Assembly: GCA_003279445.1 (NCBI GenBank) | Contig: QCHT01000003.1 | Span: forward strand, 1-64,000 | DNA from: Prochlorococcus sp. AG-402-G10 | GTDB lineage: Bacteria > Cyanobacteriota > Cyanobacteriia > PCC-6307 > Cyanobiaceae | DNA length: 64,000 nt | Direction of reading: 5' to 3' | Program-made: the position numbers and the translations under genes | Shown: positions 9,879 to 41,858 of the stretch, one piece after another | Layout: each line of letters opens with the position of its first letter | Numbering within the stretch: the stretch's first letter is position 1 | The notes under the pieces: generated by a model | The model's input: only the letters and a program-made list of their open reading frames with translations | Database searches by the model: none | Told to the model about the DNA's origin: nothing

Positions 9879-10256
9879 AAGGATGGCTCCTTAATCCGTC
9901 ATTTCTCTCATTGTAATATCAGATTAATCTGATTGGCTAAAGATTTTAAAGTAAAGATTTTTCTTAAACTAAGCACTCTTATTTCAGAATCCTACCAATG
10001 AAAATAATTAAAGGCATGAGCCTTTGAAATGAAAGATTTTCATTATGATTTCTAATTCCTTAATATGAGAAAGCCTCACAGAAGAATTAATCTAAATTCA
10101 AAGGTTCTATTAATTTGAGCTCGCATTTGTTTCAATATTGTGTTTCTATGACAAGAACAAAAAGACTATCTATCAATTCCTTTGGTTGTCCAGAGAGAGT
10201 CCATCCAACATGAAACAAAAAACAATTTCCTTTCGAAGCTTAATTTAAATGACTTA
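9879..10256. other. Intergenic region between ndhL and tRNA-Leu
   Basis: No convincing gene is seen in these 378 bases. They contain a perfect 16-bp palindrome at 9918-9933 (half-site ATCAGATT) upstream of ndhL. A small stem-loop with a 6-bp stem and 4-nt loop lies at 10010-10025 (AAAGGC/GCCTTT). On the minus strand it is followed by an AT-rich stretch and could weakly end transcription coming from the tRNA. Confidence 0.5.
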
Positions 10257-10342
10257 TGCGAGTGGAGGGACTTGAACCCTCACGACCATTGCTGGTCTCA
10301 GGATTTTAAGTCCTGTGTGTCTACCAATTCCACCACACTCGC
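10257..10342 (-). tRNA. trnL: tRNA-Leu (anticodon UAA)
   Basis: An 86-nt cloverleaf on the minus strand. The 7-bp acceptor stem GCGAGTG/CACTCGC ends in discriminator A. It has a D arm, the anticodon stem CAGGA/TCCTG with loop CTTAAAA (anticodon UAA at 10306-10308), a long class II variable arm, and a T arm with GGTTCAAGTCC. CCA is not encoded. The group I intron found in the anticodon loop of this tRNA in many cyanobacteria and chloroplasts is absent. Confidence 0.97.
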
Positions 10343-10539
10343 ACCTACTGACCCTAGCCATCCTAGGTATCTACAACTATCATAGATCCCCTCAAAACAA
10401 AATTCTGCGAATTAACAACTTTTTCTAACACGTTTTGCTTACGTTGATAAATTTTGAAGAAAGTCTGTAAGAGACCTGTCAAAGATTCTCCCTTCAATTA
10501 GAAAAAGCTTTGCTCCCTTTCATTTTTTAAAATCTTACC

Positions 10540-11610
10540 CTAAATAAAATTAGGATCAAAAGACCAATTCAAAGTTTCTCCTGCGTGAAAAGGAACTATA
10601 TATTCAAAGGGATTATCGGATTTTACCAGTTCAAATCGTGAGGAAATAATATGAGGATTTTTAACCAAAGAAATTCTTTTTTCATTAATCGGCAATCCAT
10701 AGAAATTAGGTCCAAAAACACTTGAGAAGGCTTCTAGCTGATCTAAAGCCCCTTCCTCTTCAAAAACTTGTGCATAACTTTCAATAGCATTTGGTGCATT
10801 GAATATGCCAGCGCAGCCACATGAACTTTCCTTAAATTCACGAAGATGAGGCGCCGAATCAGTGCCTAGAAAGAAACAAGGTTCCCCACTGGTAGCAGCC
10901 TGCCTAAGAGCAATTCGATGACGCTCTCTTTTTGCAACAGGGAGGCAAAAGAAATCACTCCTTAAGCCACCGTTAAAAAGAGCATTTCTATTTATATGCA
11001 AATGATGAGGAGTTATTGTTGCCGCCAATGATGCTGAACTGTTCTGAACATATTCAACAGCCTCCTCAGTTGTGATGTGTTCTAAAACCACTCTGAGAGC
11101 AGGAAATCTCTTTAGTAAAGGCTGAAGATGAGATTCAAGAAAGACGGCTTCTCTATCAAAAATATCAATAGAATGGTCTGCCACTTCTCCATGAATTAAC
11201 AATGGCATTCCAACCTCTTCCATTGTCTCAACAACAGAGTAAATATTTTCAATAGTGGTAACGCCTGCCTCTGAATTAGTAGTTGAATTTGCAGGATATA
11301 GTTTTGCTGCAAAGAAAATGCCTCTTTGAAAGCCCTCTCTTAAAACTTCTACAGAAAGGTCATCTGTAAGATAGACAGTCATGAGAGGAGTGAACAAATC
11401 CCCTTCAGGAACAGCGTCCAAGATCCTTTCTCGGTAATCAATAGCAGATTGAATACTGGTAATTGGCGGCTGTAGATTGGGCATTACTATCGCACGTCGA
11501 AACACTCGCGAAGTAGGTGCAACAAAAGTTTTCAGGGCATCTCCGTCTCTGAGATGGAGATGCCAATCATCAGGTTGACGTATTATTATTCGCTCTTGGG
11601 TCAAATGCAA
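10540..11610 (-). CDS. pyrC: Dihydroorotase PyrC
   Basis: An amidohydrolase of 356 residues, the length of type II (E. coli-like) dihydroorotases. It interconverts carbamoyl aspartate and dihydroorotate in pyrimidine synthesis. The zinc motif is HLH in PDDWHLHLRDG. AAKLYPAN carries the lysine that becomes the carboxylated bridge. LEHITT and TPHHLHINRN supply further histidines, and FLGTDSAPH the catalytic Asp. It is isolated; pyrH lies far away at 56 kb. Confidence 0.95.
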   Translation of the reverse strand: MHLTQERIIIRQPDDWHLHLRDGDALKTFVAPTSRVFRRAIVMPNLQPPITSIQSAIDYRERILDAVPEGDLFTPLMTVYLTDDLSVEVLREGFQRGIFFAAKLYPANSTTNSEAGVTTIENIYSVVETMEEVGMPLLIHGEVADHSIDIFDREAVFLESHLQPLLKRFPALRVVLEHITTEEAVEYVQNSSASLAATITPHHLHINRNALFNGGLRSDFFCLPVAKRERHRIALRQAATSGEPCFFLGTDSAPHLREFKESSCGCAGIFNAPNAIESYAQVFEEEGALDQLEAFSSVFGPNFYGLPINEKRISLVKNPHIISSRFELVKSDNPFEYIVPFHAGETLNWSFDPNFI

Positions 11611-24599: not shown

Positions 24600-26141
24600 T
24601 CAATGTTCCTCCTGAAGAACAGGATCGAGTGAAGACCCTACAACTTCTGCAGGGGATTTTGTATCTCGATCTCGAATAGTAAGGCATGTATGCAAGAGTC
24701 CATCATCTACCAAATATCGATAACGTGAAAAGATAGCGCTGTTTACTCTCTTGCAATCTGACAATGCTCTTTGTCTTGCACCAGGAACTTTCCCTGAATA
24801 ATCAAATCTAATAACAATAGGTATCGGTAAATCTCTAGAAACATTTAAACCCTTAAAAATCTTTATCCCTACATCTAAGTCGGGAGCACCTTCTTCAACA
24901 GTATCTAAATGAGCAAAGTAAGTAAGATTCCTTAAGTGAACTTCTTTAAATCCAATTCCTACACCTATAAAACGTTCGGCATGTCCTGCGTCTGGATACG
25001 AGCCATTGTGAAAGTGACGTACATAATCAATTTGAGAGATATTATTCACTATCAATTTGCGGATAAATTCAACCATTCCAGGTTTAGCTTGACCAGAAGC
25101 ACCTAGATTTATTCTTTCAGAGATTTTAGACATCGCTTGATCAACAGAGAGGTGCTTTGTCTCTTCATAAATCTCAGAAGCACAAACCCAATCCTCAAGA
25201 TTTACATTATTTTTTGAGTCTGGTACATGCACCCTAATTGCATCAGTATCTGTATCAAGGCCAATAAGTAAAAGATCGACAGAAGCTCCGCAACAAAAGC
25301 TATTTTCAATAGATTCTTGGAAATCAAGCAAACGTTGGTAGCCTGAGGCAGCGGCAAGCTTGTCATTACTACCATGAGCTGCACACCCTTGATGAGAAGG
25401 ATCCAGTGAGCTGAAGTGATAAAGAACTACTTTTAAATAACAAGTTTGTTCATTAGGTGAATTTGGGGAACTTTCTCTATAACGCTTATGCTCTGTTTTC
25501 ACCCATCTGTTAACAGTATTTTCAACATCAAACATTGCACCTGCATGAGATCTTCTGCGAACTGAACTAAATGGGATTCTTAATGCATAAGCAATTGAAT
25601 GAGCCAAACGACCATCTGCACAAGGAGTTACATCTAACAAGTGAAAACCACATTCGTAAAGAAATGATTGAAATGATTTTGCTGACTGACTATCAGAAGA
25701 AGCATTTAAAGGGTCTGAATGGAAAAACTTTTCACTTGAATGTTCATGAGCTTTAAAAACACTTGCCGCAAACAAAGCTCGCATATCTAAAGGTTGCACC
25801 CAAGCTTTTTCAAGAATATGAACAGGAAGTTCTATTCCTAATTCTTCTTTTGCAAATAGTTGAGACTTTTCAACAAAATCTTCTTCATGCTGGAGAGCAG
25901 AGATTCTCTTAAGAAAAGGGACAATACGATCAAAACTTTCTTTAGTTTCAGATTCATAACACTGAAGTTTTTTATTTTCAACCAAATCAGTTAGAGGATG
26001 AGAGCTTGTAGAACTTAATCCATTTGGCCTATTAACAGACTTTTGCTCAATTTTATTTTCCGTGGCAGAAGGAAAATGTTTTCTAGGTGCAGTCGGTCCC
26101 AGAAAAGTCTTTCTATTATTGGCCAAACGTCTATAGGCCAT
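24600..26141 (-). CDS. csoSCA: Carboxysomal carbonic anhydrase CsoSCA (CsoS3)
   Basis: A 513-residue beta-class (epsilon subclass) carbonic anhydrase that turns bicarbonate into CO2 inside the carboxysome. Zinc ligands fit the family: Cys174 in VTPCADGR with Asp176 and Arg178, His242 in LYHFSSLDP, and Cys253 in HQGCAAHG. The N-terminal 60 residues are disordered and basic; in studied systems this part binds RuBisCO. The C-terminal third is the degenerate second CA-like domain. It lies between csoS2 (7 nt gap) and csoS4A. Confidence 0.96.
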   Translation of the reverse strand: MAYRRLANNRKTFLGPTAPRKHFPSATENKIEQKSVNRPNGLSSTSSHPLTDLVENKKLQCYESETKESFDRIVPFLKRISALQHEEDFVEKSQLFAKEELGIELPVHILEKAWVQPLDMRALFAASVFKAHEHSSEKFFHSDPLNASSDSQSAKSFQSFLYECGFHLLDVTPCADGRLAHSIAYALRIPFSSVRRRSHAGAMFDVENTVNRWVKTEHKRYRESSPNSPNEQTCYLKVVLYHFSSLDPSHQGCAAHGSNDKLAAASGYQRLLDFQESIENSFCCGASVDLLLIGLDTDTDAIRVHVPDSKNNVNLEDWVCASEIYEETKHLSVDQAMSKISERINLGASGQAKPGMVEFIRKLIVNNISQIDYVRHFHNGSYPDAGHAERFIGVGIGFKEVHLRNLTYFAHLDTVEEGAPDLDVGIKIFKGLNVSRDLPIPIVIRFDYSGKVPGARQRALSDCKRVNSAIFSRYRYLVDDGLLHTCLTIRDRDTKSPAEVVGSSLDPVLQEEH

Positions 26142-26148
26142 TACTTAA

Positions 26149-28542
26149 TCAACCTCTTGCTCCACCTGAGAAAGTAACCAATTGGCCTTCTCCGGTATTT
26201 CCACTTGAGCCAGTTATCAAAAGATCTGGTTTAGATAGTTCTTCATTTCTTTTCTTATCAAATGCAGGCATTGCACTTTGACCTCCAAGTCTAGAAGGAT
26301 TACGTCTTCTTGCAGATGCACCCTCAGTGCCTGTAACGCTTTCACCTCTCGCCCAATCATCTCCGGTAATGTTTAAACCAGCAGATTGGCCTTCACCAGT
26401 AATTCTTGATATTGGGCGAGCAGATGATTCATTGGATTGAGATAAATCAACTTTAGATTGCTCATGAGAAGTTGCTATTAAAGGTTTTTTATTGCCAAAC
26501 CTAAATTGCTCCGTGCCAGTAACCTTATTAGGAGCCATGTCAAAAGGACCAGTTATATTTGTAGATTTCTCATAACTAGTACCTGTTACACCTGAAGCAG
26601 GGTCACGATCTGATTGAGCAGATTTTGCCGGAGATGTAACTGTAAATCTATTACCAAAACTTGATGATCCAGCGTCTTGATAATCACTACTTCCAGCAGG
26701 AGCAGTTGCTCCACAAGCTTGAACAAGTTGATCTGCTCCAACATATGGAGTCCCAGTAAGAGTCTCACAAGCTCCTTTATCTGCTCCAGTCATTACACCA
26801 CCAATGCCTGGCTGAAGTCCTGTCATAGGAGCTGCAGGGGTGCCAATTCTTCTAGGCGTTCTATGTTGGATTTCATCAAGTGCACGACTTTCACAAAGTT
26901 GAGCAGCTTCTTCCAATCCTGTATAAGGAGTTCCAGTAACTGACTTGCATGTTCCAGGCTCATCTCCAGTAACCAAAGATGATCTACCTGTCATTGTTCC
27001 ACTCACTGACTGAGCTTTATTAGTCAAGCTTAATCCAACCTTTTGAGCTTCTGGCGAAGGAGTCCCTCCACAAAAGGAGTCATATTGTTGAGATCCTACA
27101 TATTCATCTCCAGTGACATTCTTGCAACTACCAGCTTCATCTCCAGTGACACTAGAAGCTCTTCCTACTCCGGTACCTGTTACAGCTGTACCATTGAGTG
27201 TATTAAAAACACCTACTTTTCTTGCTGGTCTTCCATCTGGCAAAGGATCAGCTCCCAGATATTGATCGCCAGTAAGATTCTTACTGGAACCAGCTTCATC
27301 TCCAGTGACACTGCCTGAGCGGCCGACCATAACACCACTTACTTTTCGCCCATCTTGAGTAAGACTTTGCCCAACTTTTAAAGGAGAAGGATTTACTCCT
27401 CCACAATAAGAAGTTGATTGATTAGCTGATATGTATTCTGTACCTGTCAGATTCTTACAAGTCCCAGGCTCATCTCCTGTTACTTTCTCGGAGCGACCTA
27501 CTTCATTTCCAGTAACCTGATTTCCATGTGAAGTATTTGTAACGGCAACTTTAAGCGGTTGAGGTGGTGAAGAGGGTGGCGACTGACAGAAAGTATTAAT
27601 TGTATCTGCACCTAAATATTGTGTCCCAGTAACAGAACGACAGGTGCTTGCTTCATTACCAGTGGTTTTAATCGATCTATTAGCTTGTGTACCAGTAACA
27701 ATCTGTCCAGAAGAAGTTTCACTAACTCCTACTTTCCAATGAGCATCTGCAGCTAATGCTGACTCCTTTGATCCATTCTTATTTGGACCACAAGGCCTTG
27801 TTCCACAAGAACGCTTTTTACCTGTAGCACCACTTTTACTTCTAAGTTCTCTAACACGCTGAGATATTTCACGACTGGACAAATCAGGATTACCTTGACG
27901 GGCTACTGCGGCAGGAGTTGTTGGTTGAACAGAAGCAGATTTGCCATGTTTAGATAATGCTTCTCTTCTTGCAAGAACGAGCGCCCTACTAGGATTTTCT
28001 ATTGCTCTTCGTTTAGGAGTGGAATTGCGACGAGGCGTAGCTTTAGAAATATTAATAGCTAAATTATTAGATTTTTCAGAAGCTGACTGACGTGCTTTTT
28101 CTTGTGCACAAGGTTCACAGCAAGCTTCAACTTGAGTATTAACTGAAACTACTTTAGATGATTCTTTTGAAGCATTTTTTGCAACATCTACTCTTGTTCT
28201 GTCTTGACTTTTATCTGCTGACTTACCACGCTGAGAGAGAGCTTCACGACGAGCAAGAACCAACTCTCTACTAGGATTTGTTATTGGCCTAGGATTCCTT
28301 ATTTTGGAATGACTATTTGTTGATGGCACAGAAATAGATGTTTGTGAATGCACTTTTTGGGCTGCACTTATCTGGTTTTCACTTGACTTTATAAAGGATT
28401 TATCAGTCCTAGTAACGCCTACATCTGATGCAGACCTAACGCGATTAGGACTTGATGAGCTTAGTCCAGAGGCCTTTTTACCTCCAGTACTAAGAGCCTT
28501 ACGACGCTCAAGTGCAAGTTCTCTACTAGATTGTGATGCCAT
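26149..28542 (-). CDS. csoS2: Carboxysome scaffold protein CsoS2
   Basis: A 797-residue intrinsically disordered scaffold linking RuBisCO to the shell. Four N-terminal RuBisCO-binding repeats of the form SRxLxLxRRxALS lie near residues 5, 90, 184 and 221. A middle region (269-610) holds six copies of a roughly 50-residue repeat with paired VTG/VSG motifs and cysteines. The C-terminal region (630-797) has further ITG/VTG motifs and ends with TGEGQLVTFSGGARG, the shell-anchoring peptide. It reads as one open frame; I see no sign of the -1 frameshift that gives two isoforms in Halothiobacillus. It starts about 43 nt after tandem hairpins behind rbcS. Confidence 0.96.
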   Translation of the reverse strand: MASQSSRELALERRKALSTGGKKASGLSSSSPNRVRSASDVGVTRTDKSFIKSSENQISAAQKVHSQTSISVPSTNSHSKIRNPRPITNPSRELVLARREALSQRGKSADKSQDRTRVDVAKNASKESSKVVSVNTQVEACCEPCAQEKARQSASEKSNNLAINISKATPRRNSTPKRRAIENPSRALVLARREALSKHGKSASVQPTTPAAVARQGNPDLSSREISQRVRELRSKSGATGKKRSCGTRPCGPNKNGSKESALAADAHWKVGVSETSSGQIVTGTQANRSIKTTGNEASTCRSVTGTQYLGADTINTFCQSPPSSPPQPLKVAVTNTSHGNQVTGNEVGRSEKVTGDEPGTCKNLTGTEYISANQSTSYCGGVNPSPLKVGQSLTQDGRKVSGVMVGRSGSVTGDEAGSSKNLTGDQYLGADPLPDGRPARKVGVFNTLNGTAVTGTGVGRASSVTGDEAGSCKNVTGDEYVGSQQYDSFCGGTPSPEAQKVGLSLTNKAQSVSGTMTGRSSLVTGDEPGTCKSVTGTPYTGLEEAAQLCESRALDEIQHRTPRRIGTPAAPMTGLQPGIGGVMTGADKGACETLTGTPYVGADQLVQACGATAPAGSSDYQDAGSSSFGNRFTVTSPAKSAQSDRDPASGVTGTSYEKSTNITGPFDMAPNKVTGTEQFRFGNKKPLIATSHEQSKVDLSQSNESSARPISRITGEGQSAGLNITGDDWARGESVTGTEGASARRRNPSRLGGQSAMPAFDKKRNEELSKPDLLITGSSGNTGEGQLVTFSGGARG
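26713..27738 (-). repeat. CsoS2 middle-region tandem repeats (six copies)
   Basis: Six protein-level repeats at residues about 269-319, 331-380, 388-435, 442-491, 501-550 and 565-610. The pattern is KVGxSxT, VTG or VSG, xVGRS, VTGDExGxC, VTGxxYxG, then a Cys. The third copy lacks both cysteines (GSSKNLTG, then DPLPDGR). The sixth is the most divergent. Confidence 0.9.
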
Positions 28543-38977: not shown

Positions 38978-39742
38978 ATGTCTCAAAACCTAGTCCAAAC
39001 TGCTCAAATTATAAATTCAGCTCCTTTCAGTGGTCCTGCTCAGATGGCTTGTGATGCAATGATGCTTGAAAAGCTTAGAGGAAGTACTGAAATTTCATTG
39101 TCTGTACGTTTCTACAATTGGAAGGGAATATGGCTGTCTATTGGCCATCACCAAAAAAAATTACCTCAGAAATGGGTCGACCTAGCTAAAGAAAAAAAGC
39201 TGAATATCGTTCGCAGACCTAGTGGTGGAAGCGCAGTCCTTCATGCAGGGGGACTAACTTATTCTCTAGCCTGGCAATCACCTCCAAGAAAAAAACGCCA
39301 AGCTTATGAGGAAGCAAGTCAATGGCTAATTGAAAGTTTCGCTGCACTTAATTTCCCTTTGAAATTTGGAACAGAGAAATCTATTTCTCCCACTGGTAAT
39401 TGTTTTTCAAGCTCAAGCATTGCGGATTTGATCGATGCTCAAGGCAACAAAAGAGTTGGTAGTGCTCAATACTGGCAAGGTGGGAATTTGCTTCAGCATG
39501 GTGAAATCCTTTTAGATCCTCCGATTGATCTTTGGAGAGAAGTCTTTAATACAGCCCCACCACAAGCTGCCCCAAGTAATGTTCCAAGGAATGGTCTTAT
39601 CGATTATTTAACTAAACACTGTGTTTCCTATTGGTCAAGATTTAATTGGATACAAAATGAATTAGGGGAAAATGAATTGGAAAATATTTTCCGAAATTCA
39701 AAAAGTTACTTTATCAAGTTATCTGATAAGAAAAATGAATAA
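38978..39742 (+). CDS. Lipoate-protein ligase A-like protein
   Basis: A 254-residue member of the biotin/lipoate ligase (BPL_LplA_LipB) fold. MACDAMMLEKLRG at the start, YNWKGIWLSIGHHQ, and RRPSGGSAVLHAGGLTYSL, the motif that covers lipoyl-AMP. IADLIDAQGNKRVGSAQYW is the expected lysine-bearing region. It could attach lipoate or octanoate to the H protein or dehydrogenase E2, or may act as an octanoyltransferase-like enzyme; sequence alone does not decide. Confidence 0.85.
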   Translation: MSQNLVQTAQIINSAPFSGPAQMACDAMMLEKLRGSTEISLSVRFYNWKGIWLSIGHHQKKLPQKWVDLAKEKKLNIVRRPSGGSAVLHAGGLTYSLAWQSPPRKKRQAYEEASQWLIESFAALNFPLKFGTEKSISPTGNCFSSSSIADLIDAQGNKRVGSAQYWQGGNLLQHGEILLDPPIDLWREVFNTAPPQAAPSNVPRNGLIDYLTKHCVSYWSRFNWIQNELGENELENIFRNSKSYFIKLSDKKNE

Positions 39743-39822: not shown

Positions 39823-41109
39823 TCATGATTCCGACCCCTTGTTCTCACTAGGTATTTCTACAAACCATTTATCTAATTCAGATTTCTGAATCAAGCTATT
39901 CTTCATCATTTGTTCTACAAGCTTAACTAAAGATATACCCAAGGGATAAGAATTATTTTTTCTAGCTTCTTCCAAAATAGTTTTTGGAAGTTTAAGTCCA
40001 AGTTCTTTTAAAACAATCTCTGAGAGATCGACCTTGTCAATAGTTCCAGATGGTAAACCTGCAAGATTAAAGACCAATAGTCTTTGATCTTTTTGTTTCT
40101 CTAAGGCTAATACTGCTACCCAAAGGGGACTCTTCTCACTAATTGAAGGTAAATCAGATAGAGGTTTTTTGTAATCAGCCAAGAGATACTGGTTCCAGTG
40201 TTCAAGTGGTACATCTTTAAAAAATTCGGGAGTAATATAACCAACCCATCTTCCAGAACTACATAAAAGAACCCATTCTTTTGAACAATTCTCAATAGAA
40301 GAAATCAAACCTAAGTCACTTAACCGTTTTAATGGTTGATCTTGTTCAAGAACACGAAAACGTCTTTTTGAGATTTCTTTGACAGAAGTATTAGATAAGG
40401 TTTTCTGAACAATTGTTATTTGGTCATGAGACCTTATTGAAGTAAGGCCAAACCAACCGAAGGTTATTAGACAGAGAGCTAAAAAAGCTGCTCCTGGAAC
40501 AGTTAAAGTCAATACACCTAAAATAATTACTCCTAAAGAGAAAAAACGTCCAGAAGCAATTGCTACTCGATGACCTTTCCTTTCACTGCCAGTAAAATAC
40601 CAAGCTAATGATTTAAGAATCACCCCACCATCCAATGGTAATGCTGGTAATAAATTAAAAACTGCCAAGAGTAAATTTATAACACCTATCTGTGTAAGGA
40701 GATTTTGTAGTATTGGGTTGATATTTGCTGACAAAGAGAAGCAAACTATCGAGATAGAGATGCTTGTAATTGGCCCAGCTGAAGCAACTCTAAGTTGACT
40801 CATAGCTGTTGAACTTGGGTTCCCTATACTTTTAATACCACTAAAAGAAAAGATAGTTATGCCATAGACTTTCACTCCTTCATTCAAAGCAGCGAAAGAA
40901 TGAGCAATCTCACGCAAAACAACAGATAACAATAAAAATATCGAGGTTAAAAAGCCGATGCACCAACCTTGCCAGGCTGGGAATTGATCCGCAAATGTTC
41001 TCGAGAACTGGACTTGTGCTATCCGGGTGAAAATTATGAGCATCAGCATCCAACTTGGATGAACTTTTATTGAGATGCCCCTTAGTTTGATCAACTCAAT
41101 ACCGTCCAA
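39823..41109 (-). CDS. M50 (site-2 protease-like) membrane protein with altered zinc motif
   Basis: A 428-residue membrane protein of the Spo4FB/S2P type: five or six transmembrane helices (about 1-215) and a soluble C-terminal part (about 220-428) in the place where CBS domains occur in relatives. The family HExxH motif is RExxH here (VVLREIAHSF, Arg66-Glu67, His70), because codon 66 (40912-40914) reads CGT instead of CAT. The second motif NLLPALPLDGG with Asp160 is intact. It may be an inactive, regulatory protease, or the residue may be a sequence error. It lies convergent with the lipoate-ligase gene. Confidence 0.88.
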   Translation of the reverse strand: MDGIELIKLRGISIKVHPSWMLMLIIFTRIAQVQFSRTFADQFPAWQGWCIGFLTSIFLLLSVVLREIAHSFAALNEGVKVYGITIFSFSGIKSIGNPSSTAMSQLRVASAGPITSISISIVCFSLSANINPILQNLLTQIGVINLLLAVFNLLPALPLDGGVILKSLAWYFTGSERKGHRVAIASGRFFSLGVIILGVLTLTVPGAAFLALCLITFGWFGLTSIRSHDQITIVQKTLSNTSVKEISKRRFRVLEQDQPLKRLSDLGLISSIENCSKEWVLLCSSGRWVGYITPEFFKDVPLEHWNQYLLADYKKPLSDLPSISEKSPLWVAVLALEKQKDQRLLVFNLAGLPSGTIDKVDLSEIVLKELGLKLPKTILEEARKNNSYPLGISLVKLVEQMMKNSLIQKSELDKWFVEIPSENKGSES

Positions 41110-41186
41110 GTTCCTTCTCCATATAAGTAAAAAATGATAAGAGGCTGTTTCAATCCTATAAAGGTAATAGTTAATTGAGTTTGATC

Positions 41187-41858
41187 ATGAAAACTCAAAC
41201 ATCACCATCTGTAAAGATCTGTGGCATCACACAAATTGAACAAGCTCTAGAAATTGCTTCCTTAGGAGTTGATGCAATTGGCGTAATAGGTGTAGAAAGC
41301 TCTCCTCGATTCCTATGCGAGAAGAAAAGGCGAACGTTATTCAATGAATTAATTGAAAATGCACCCTCAATTAAGAGGGTCTGGGTTGTCGCCAACTTAG
41401 ACATTAAAGAGATTAGAGAAGGGATAGAGGGGGAAGGCTCACCATCAACTGTGCAACTCCATGGGGGTGAATCAAGAAAGCTTTGCGAAGAGTTGAAAAA
41501 ATCATACCCTGATATTCAATGGTGGAAAGCATTACAAATTCGCCATAAGGCTGACTTGCTTTTAGCAGAAACCTACCAAAACTCTGTCGATGCAATACTT
41601 CTTGATGCTTGGAGTGGAAACATTTTAGGTGGTACCGGCAAGAGACTACCGATAAAATGGCTTGAAAATCTCAATTACAAAATTCCCTGGTGGCTAGCTG
41701 GAGGAATTTCTGATTCTTCTATTGATGAGATTCTTTCAAAAGCTCAACCCTCAGGAATAGATGCTTCTAGTAAGTTAGAAATTGAGCCTGGCATTAAAGA
41801 TATTAAAAAAGTAAAAGCTCTTTTGAACAAATTAAAAAGCCTAAGGAAAATAGATTAA
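41187..41858 (+). CDS. trpF: Phosphoribosylanthranilate isomerase
   Basis: A TIM-barrel isomerase of tryptophan synthesis, about 223 residues. KICGITQ (catalytic Cys), VQLHGGESRKLCEEL, AILLDAWSGNILGGTGKRLPIKW (catalytic Asp) and WWLAGGISDSSI. The ATG at 41187 is preferred over an in-frame TTG at 41175. It is separate from trpA, so the pathway is scattered. It is divergent from the M50 gene. Confidence 0.95.
   Translation: MKTQTSPSVKICGITQIEQALEIASLGVDAIGVIGVESSPRFLCEKKRRTLFNELIENAPSIKRVWVVANLDIKEIREGIEGEGSPSTVQLHGGESRKLCEELKKSYPDIQWWKALQIRHKADLLLAETYQNSVDAILLDAWSGNILGGTGKRLPIKWLENLNYKIPWWLAGGISDSSIDEILSKAQPSGIDASSKLEIEPGIKDIKKVKALLNKLKSLRKID

Follow-up and report, generated by a model that had tools for sequence, protein, structure and literature searches.

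An S2P homologue of Prochlorococcus that lost its first zinc ligand and is probably retained as an inactive pseudoprotease

Introduction

Site-2 proteases (S2Ps) have been studied as cutting enzymes. Inactive relatives of intramembrane proteases are nevertheless already known: iRhoms, rhomboid pseudoproteases described from eukaryotes, regulate the same signalling as the proteases that they resemble. We liken them to the protein studied here by description, since they belong to a serine-protease family with an unrelated fold. Within the S2P family, the consulted part of PMC9355673 presents EGY3, which is restricted to plants, as the only homologous pseudoenzyme. Like our protein, this chloroplast protein is a conserved S2P homologue of a photosynthetic membrane system, judged inactive by sequence; EGY3 differs in being a plant protein, and the parallel is again one of description. 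Among cyanobacterial S2Ps, Sll0528 of Synechocystis is reported in the sections consulted as an active metalloprotease with stress phenotypes that interacts with RbcR (PMC4284730, PMC12014562), and it may correspond in function to the intact orthologues described below.

A literature search, with most subscription journals and the databases of M50 non-peptidase homologues outside its scope, turned up no publication describing an S2P pseudoprotease from bacteria. No paper on a Prochlorococcus S2P/M50 pseudoprotease or pseudoenzyme was among the matches listed, and none of the best 12 of 40 matches dealt with a bacterial site-2 pseudoprotease with altered HExxH. The available text of a review on bacterial S2Ps (PMC10202637) contains neither 'catalytically' nor 'cyanobacteri' and uses 'inactive' twice, for other matters, and the available text of the SS120 proteome paper does not mention the protein. 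Pseudoproteases are thus not new as such; what is new here is a probable case among bacterial S2Ps, with a graded series of site states inside one genus.

Results

The window, i.e. the whole stretch of 64,000 nucleotides analysed here, belongs to the genome of Prochlorococcus sp. AG-402-G10 (1.62 Mb, 37 contigs, 89.7% complete). Its minus strand carries, at 39823..41109, an open reading frame of 428 amino acids (TTG start, stop included) encoding an M50/site-2 protease homologue. A preliminary description of this DNA had noticed an arginine in place of the first zinc-binding histidine of HExxH, and the codon is indeed CGT (Arg66; 40912..40914, minus strand, where the plus strand reads 'acg'), inside this frame. 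The numbering of the other site residues was borne out as well: the protein has Glu67 at the catalytic position (40909..40911, minus), His70 at the second zinc-ligand position (40900..40902, minus) and Asp160 of LDGG at the third (40630..40632, minus). Its motif therefore reads REIAH, and not an HExxH with both histidines.

Homology to the M50 membrane core was clear (56 bits against Pfam PF02163, cut-off 27.2), and a search of NCBIfam with the protein gave nothing above a cut-off. Used as the sole query sequence, it matched the group III proteins MjS2P of M. jannaschii (MJ0392, PDB 3b4r; E 2.3e-15) and SpoIVFB (PDB 8vjl; E 1.9e-6), with the membrane core aligned over its full length. In profile alignments R66, E67, H70 and D160 fall on MjS2P H54, E55, H58 and D148 (numbers counted along the printed alignment), while R66 falls on the first histidine of the SpoIVFB HELGH and D160 on its LDGG. 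MjS2P H54, H58 and D148 are the zinc ligands of the solved structure. The window protein shares Glu67, His70, Asn152 and LDGG with both proteins but differs from them in having Arg at the first zinc-ligand position, Lys at a position of the reentrant loop, and the substitution G90S. Its C-terminal domain may or may not be a CBS domain: PF00571 was found in 1 of 27 members, at an E of 0.16, and profile searches against PDB gave MJ1004 (0.002) and a CBS protein (0.023). An AlphaFold model built from three sequences had a mean pLDDT of 33.8 and was not used.

Of 14 genomes of the genus, 12 carry the gene, window genome included, and in the wider family 362 of 400 genomes searched have a match. 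It lies between two plus-strand genes named from their sequences, a convergent lipoate-ligase-like gene (38978..39742) and a divergent trpF-like gene (41175..41858). These neighbours flank it at each of the 12 genus loci as well as at 27/27 loci of another genus, g17, in the first batch, and because of this conserved synteny the genes compared are true orthologues and a mix-up of paralogues is ruled out. The two genomes without the gene, G006 and G008, also lack a trpF match, which argues for an assembly gap over gene loss, although the trpF search was run without a separate positive control; probably these assemblies simply do not include the locus. A weak M50-like match in G008 was considered as a broken orthologue and rejected: it is a different protein with HELAH, a separate short frame of 176 codons (L161, 1699-1995). 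In G014, contig C17 bears two equal-score copies of the gene in inverted orientation (10015-11244, minus, and 25617-26846, plus), possibly an artefact of assembly or amplification.

In each of the 12 genus orthologues the reading frame is open throughout. At positions 66, 67, 70 and 160-162 we read R-E-H-DGG in seven, R-E-N-DGG in one, Y-E-H-DGG in two, C-E-R-NGG in one and H-E-H-DGS in one. Arg66 is hence common to 8/12 orthologues rather than private to the window genome, three others have Tyr or Cys, and a single one keeps His. Glu67 is kept in all 12, Asp160 in 11 and His70 in 10, with H70N, H70R, D160N and G162S each confined to a single lineage. One orthologue has lost all three ligands (C66, R70, N160) in an open frame of 433 codons (L011:1501-2742, minus). 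The only member with an intact HELGH (L009:1501-2730, plus) has LDGS and HSSW in place of LDGG and HPSW, and so may be altered too.

Elsewhere in the family, outside the genus and g17, H-E-H-DGG was present in 58/58 complete orthologues read. Of 57 g17 orthologues (three read by eye), 54 have both histidines and the aspartate, one of them with DGA, and the remaining three show independent ligand losses (His70Arg twice, His66Tyr once; L044, L046, L059). Fragments L037, L058 and L066 were dropped from all motif counts, and L013/L014 were set aside as duplicates of L003/L002. The eight aligned g17 sequences all carry Arg or Lys for Gly112 in an otherwise invariant AGP. The preliminary description had given HELAHS as the motif of relatives and a single transition as the origin of the arginine. 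HELAHS holds for genus g56 only (7/7 sampled), most intact relatives having HELGHS and the closest ones sharing Arg; the single transition fits the data, with CAT the most frequent outgroup codon and CGT in the window.

A 63-tip tree that omitted columns 66, 70 and 160 groups all 11 orthologues without His66 in a single clade (aLRT 99.2/UFBoot 100), with L009 as its sister. For this tree 15 of 78 aligned sequences, picked from intact clades, were left out, and the 8 g17 sequences in it (of 57) were picked to include the mutated ones. Histidine may have been lost in the 11-species clade in one event, or in two (an Arg half and a Tyr/Cys half); with the g17 cases, at least four changes from intact to lost states are needed. 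Loss does not extend to M50 proteases generally: the sister protease RseP has HExxH in 13/13 loci and LDGG in all 12 that reach it, so that loss is specific to this protein. Neither does a second group III paralogue appear to take over, since RseP and the present protein are the only matches to PF02163 in the window genome, and across the genus the same two kinds are matched, plus the weak G008 match.

Arg66 comes with companion changes at the active-site cleft, which the preliminary description did not anticipate any more than the recurrent, genus-wide loss itself. All eight Arg orthologues share R29 (41023..41025, minus; first membrane segment), R66, S88, K93 and V194, none of which occurs in the other genus members or in the 58 outgroup sequences. 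Lys93 (40831..40833, minus; membrane-reentrant loop) replaces an Ala found in 57/58 intact outgroup sequences. It aligns with SpoIVFB V70, a residue that lies in a predicted reentrant loop and crosslinks to substrate, according to the consulted parts of PMC9042235 and PMC4597795. Moreover, G90 of a conserved GG is Ser in 6/8 Arg orthologues.

We estimated selection with a one-ratio codon model per set, leaving out gapped codon columns; some sets are divergent and all values are approximate. The eight Arg66 orthologues gave ω=0.154 (neighbours 0.192 and 0.189), two intact sets 0.110 (neighbours 0.184 and 0.188) and 0.090 (0.145 and 0.146), and the Tyr/Cys set 0.160 (0.145 and 0.104). Neutrality (ω=1, fitted with kappa held at its fitted value) was strongly rejected in all four sets tested: in the Arg clade it costs 370 lnL units (−6048.8 vs −6419.0), and still 78 among its four closest members. 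Both halves of the protein are equally constrained (ω of 0.148 for the membrane half and 0.165 for the C-terminal half). Relative to the neighbours, ω rises from ~0.6 in intact lineages to ~0.8 in the Arg clade, showing that constraint is partly relaxed there, and reaches 1.3 in the Tyr/Cys clade. Within the Arg clade, an ω near 0 at codon 66 improves the fit over ω=1 by 7.7 lnL units, and three different Arg codons are in use; Arg66 is hence held and not drifting.

Discussion

The most probable reading, in which we have good though not full confidence, is that the first zinc ligand of this group III (SpoIVFB/MjS2P-like) S2P disappeared in an ancestor of this Prochlorococcus genus and that the protein was retained as an inactive pseudoprotease. 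Two marks of a pseudoprotease are found together in the lineage: loss of the metal motif throughout (11/12 orthologues, in one clade) and purifying selection. The preliminary description held that losing this ligand should abolish proteolysis. This inference is well supported, as the residue occupies a ligand position in the solved homologues and other members of the lineage lost further ligands; there would be no productive zinc binding and no cutting, although conserved E67 and D160, and mostly conserved H70, could allow some residual metal binding. Since the gene is kept under strong selection despite Arg66, it probably has a job that does not involve cutting proteins. The preliminary description had suggested that the inactive protein may still bind substrates, and the constraint on its membrane domain fits a non-catalytic role.

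That Arg66 is a sequencing or assembly error (a CAT misread), or a product of comparing paralogues, has practically nothing left in its favour. The window genome is an incomplete draft, but Arg66 occurs in seven other genomes, two of them 99-100% complete, and the eight orthologues, with the same two neighbours, encode it by different synonymous codons (CGT five times, CGC twice, CGA once). We find it unlikely that the gene, its catalytic activity no longer needed, is slowly decaying toward loss. The variety of states at position 66 (R, Y and C), the additional losses at 70, 160 and 162, the rise of ω relative to the neighbours, the ligand losses in g17 and the orthologue without any ligand (L011) would all fit such a decay. 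It accounts poorly for 12 open frames out of 12, for the rejection of ω=1 in four sets and for the conservation of Arg66 and Lys93 themselves over eight species, and its absence from G006 and G008, where a trpF match is missing as well, is better explained by assembly gaps.

Somewhat less probable still is that the protein remains a metalloprotease of altered activity, in which H70 and D160 bind zinc together with either E67 or a migrated ligand, H180 (40570..40572, minus). H180 occurs in each of the 11 orthologues that lack His66 but neither in L009 nor in the 58 outgroup sequences (only Q47 comes near this pattern, but L009 has it too), E67 and D160 are almost universally kept in the genus, and other pseudoenzymes offer examples of catalytic residues that have migrated, according to the consulted part of PMC10211241. 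A cationic Arg at the ligand position speaks against this, as does L011, which retains H180 though H66, H70 and D160 are gone, and position 180 is variable overall (19 changes on the tree). H180 would moreover lie after the TM4 region, presumably at the cytosolic edge by MjS2P topology, and thus probably far from the site.

Returning to the inactive pseudoprotease, the protein is probably a binding regulator. Arg66, perhaps with Lys93, might supply the positive charge formerly provided by zinc opposite Glu67 and Asp160, keeping the shape of the cleft, and the protein could then bind its former substrate or a partner in the membrane by holding, shielding or scaffolding it. Such binding might be gated by the C-terminal domain, and Sll0528, should it prove to be an orthologue, would suggest stress and RbcR as candidate settings. 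In its full form, our proposal is of a bacterial S2P pseudoprotease in which a fixed Arg66 and a substrate-loop Lys93 replace zinc, the cleft holds the former client uncut, and catalysis disappeared on more than one occasion in relatives of Prochlorococcus with the protein kept, comparable to iRhoms and EGY3; we offer it tentatively, as a reading somewhat less likely than not.

A single bacterial genus thus contains a graded series, from His with an altered LDGG, through Arg alone, Arg with His70Asn, and Tyr, to the loss of all three ligands. This series opens a direct way of asking which roles S2Ps may have besides cutting, and how a fold can outlast the dismantling of its metal site, in an organism that ranks among the ocean's most abundant phototrophs.
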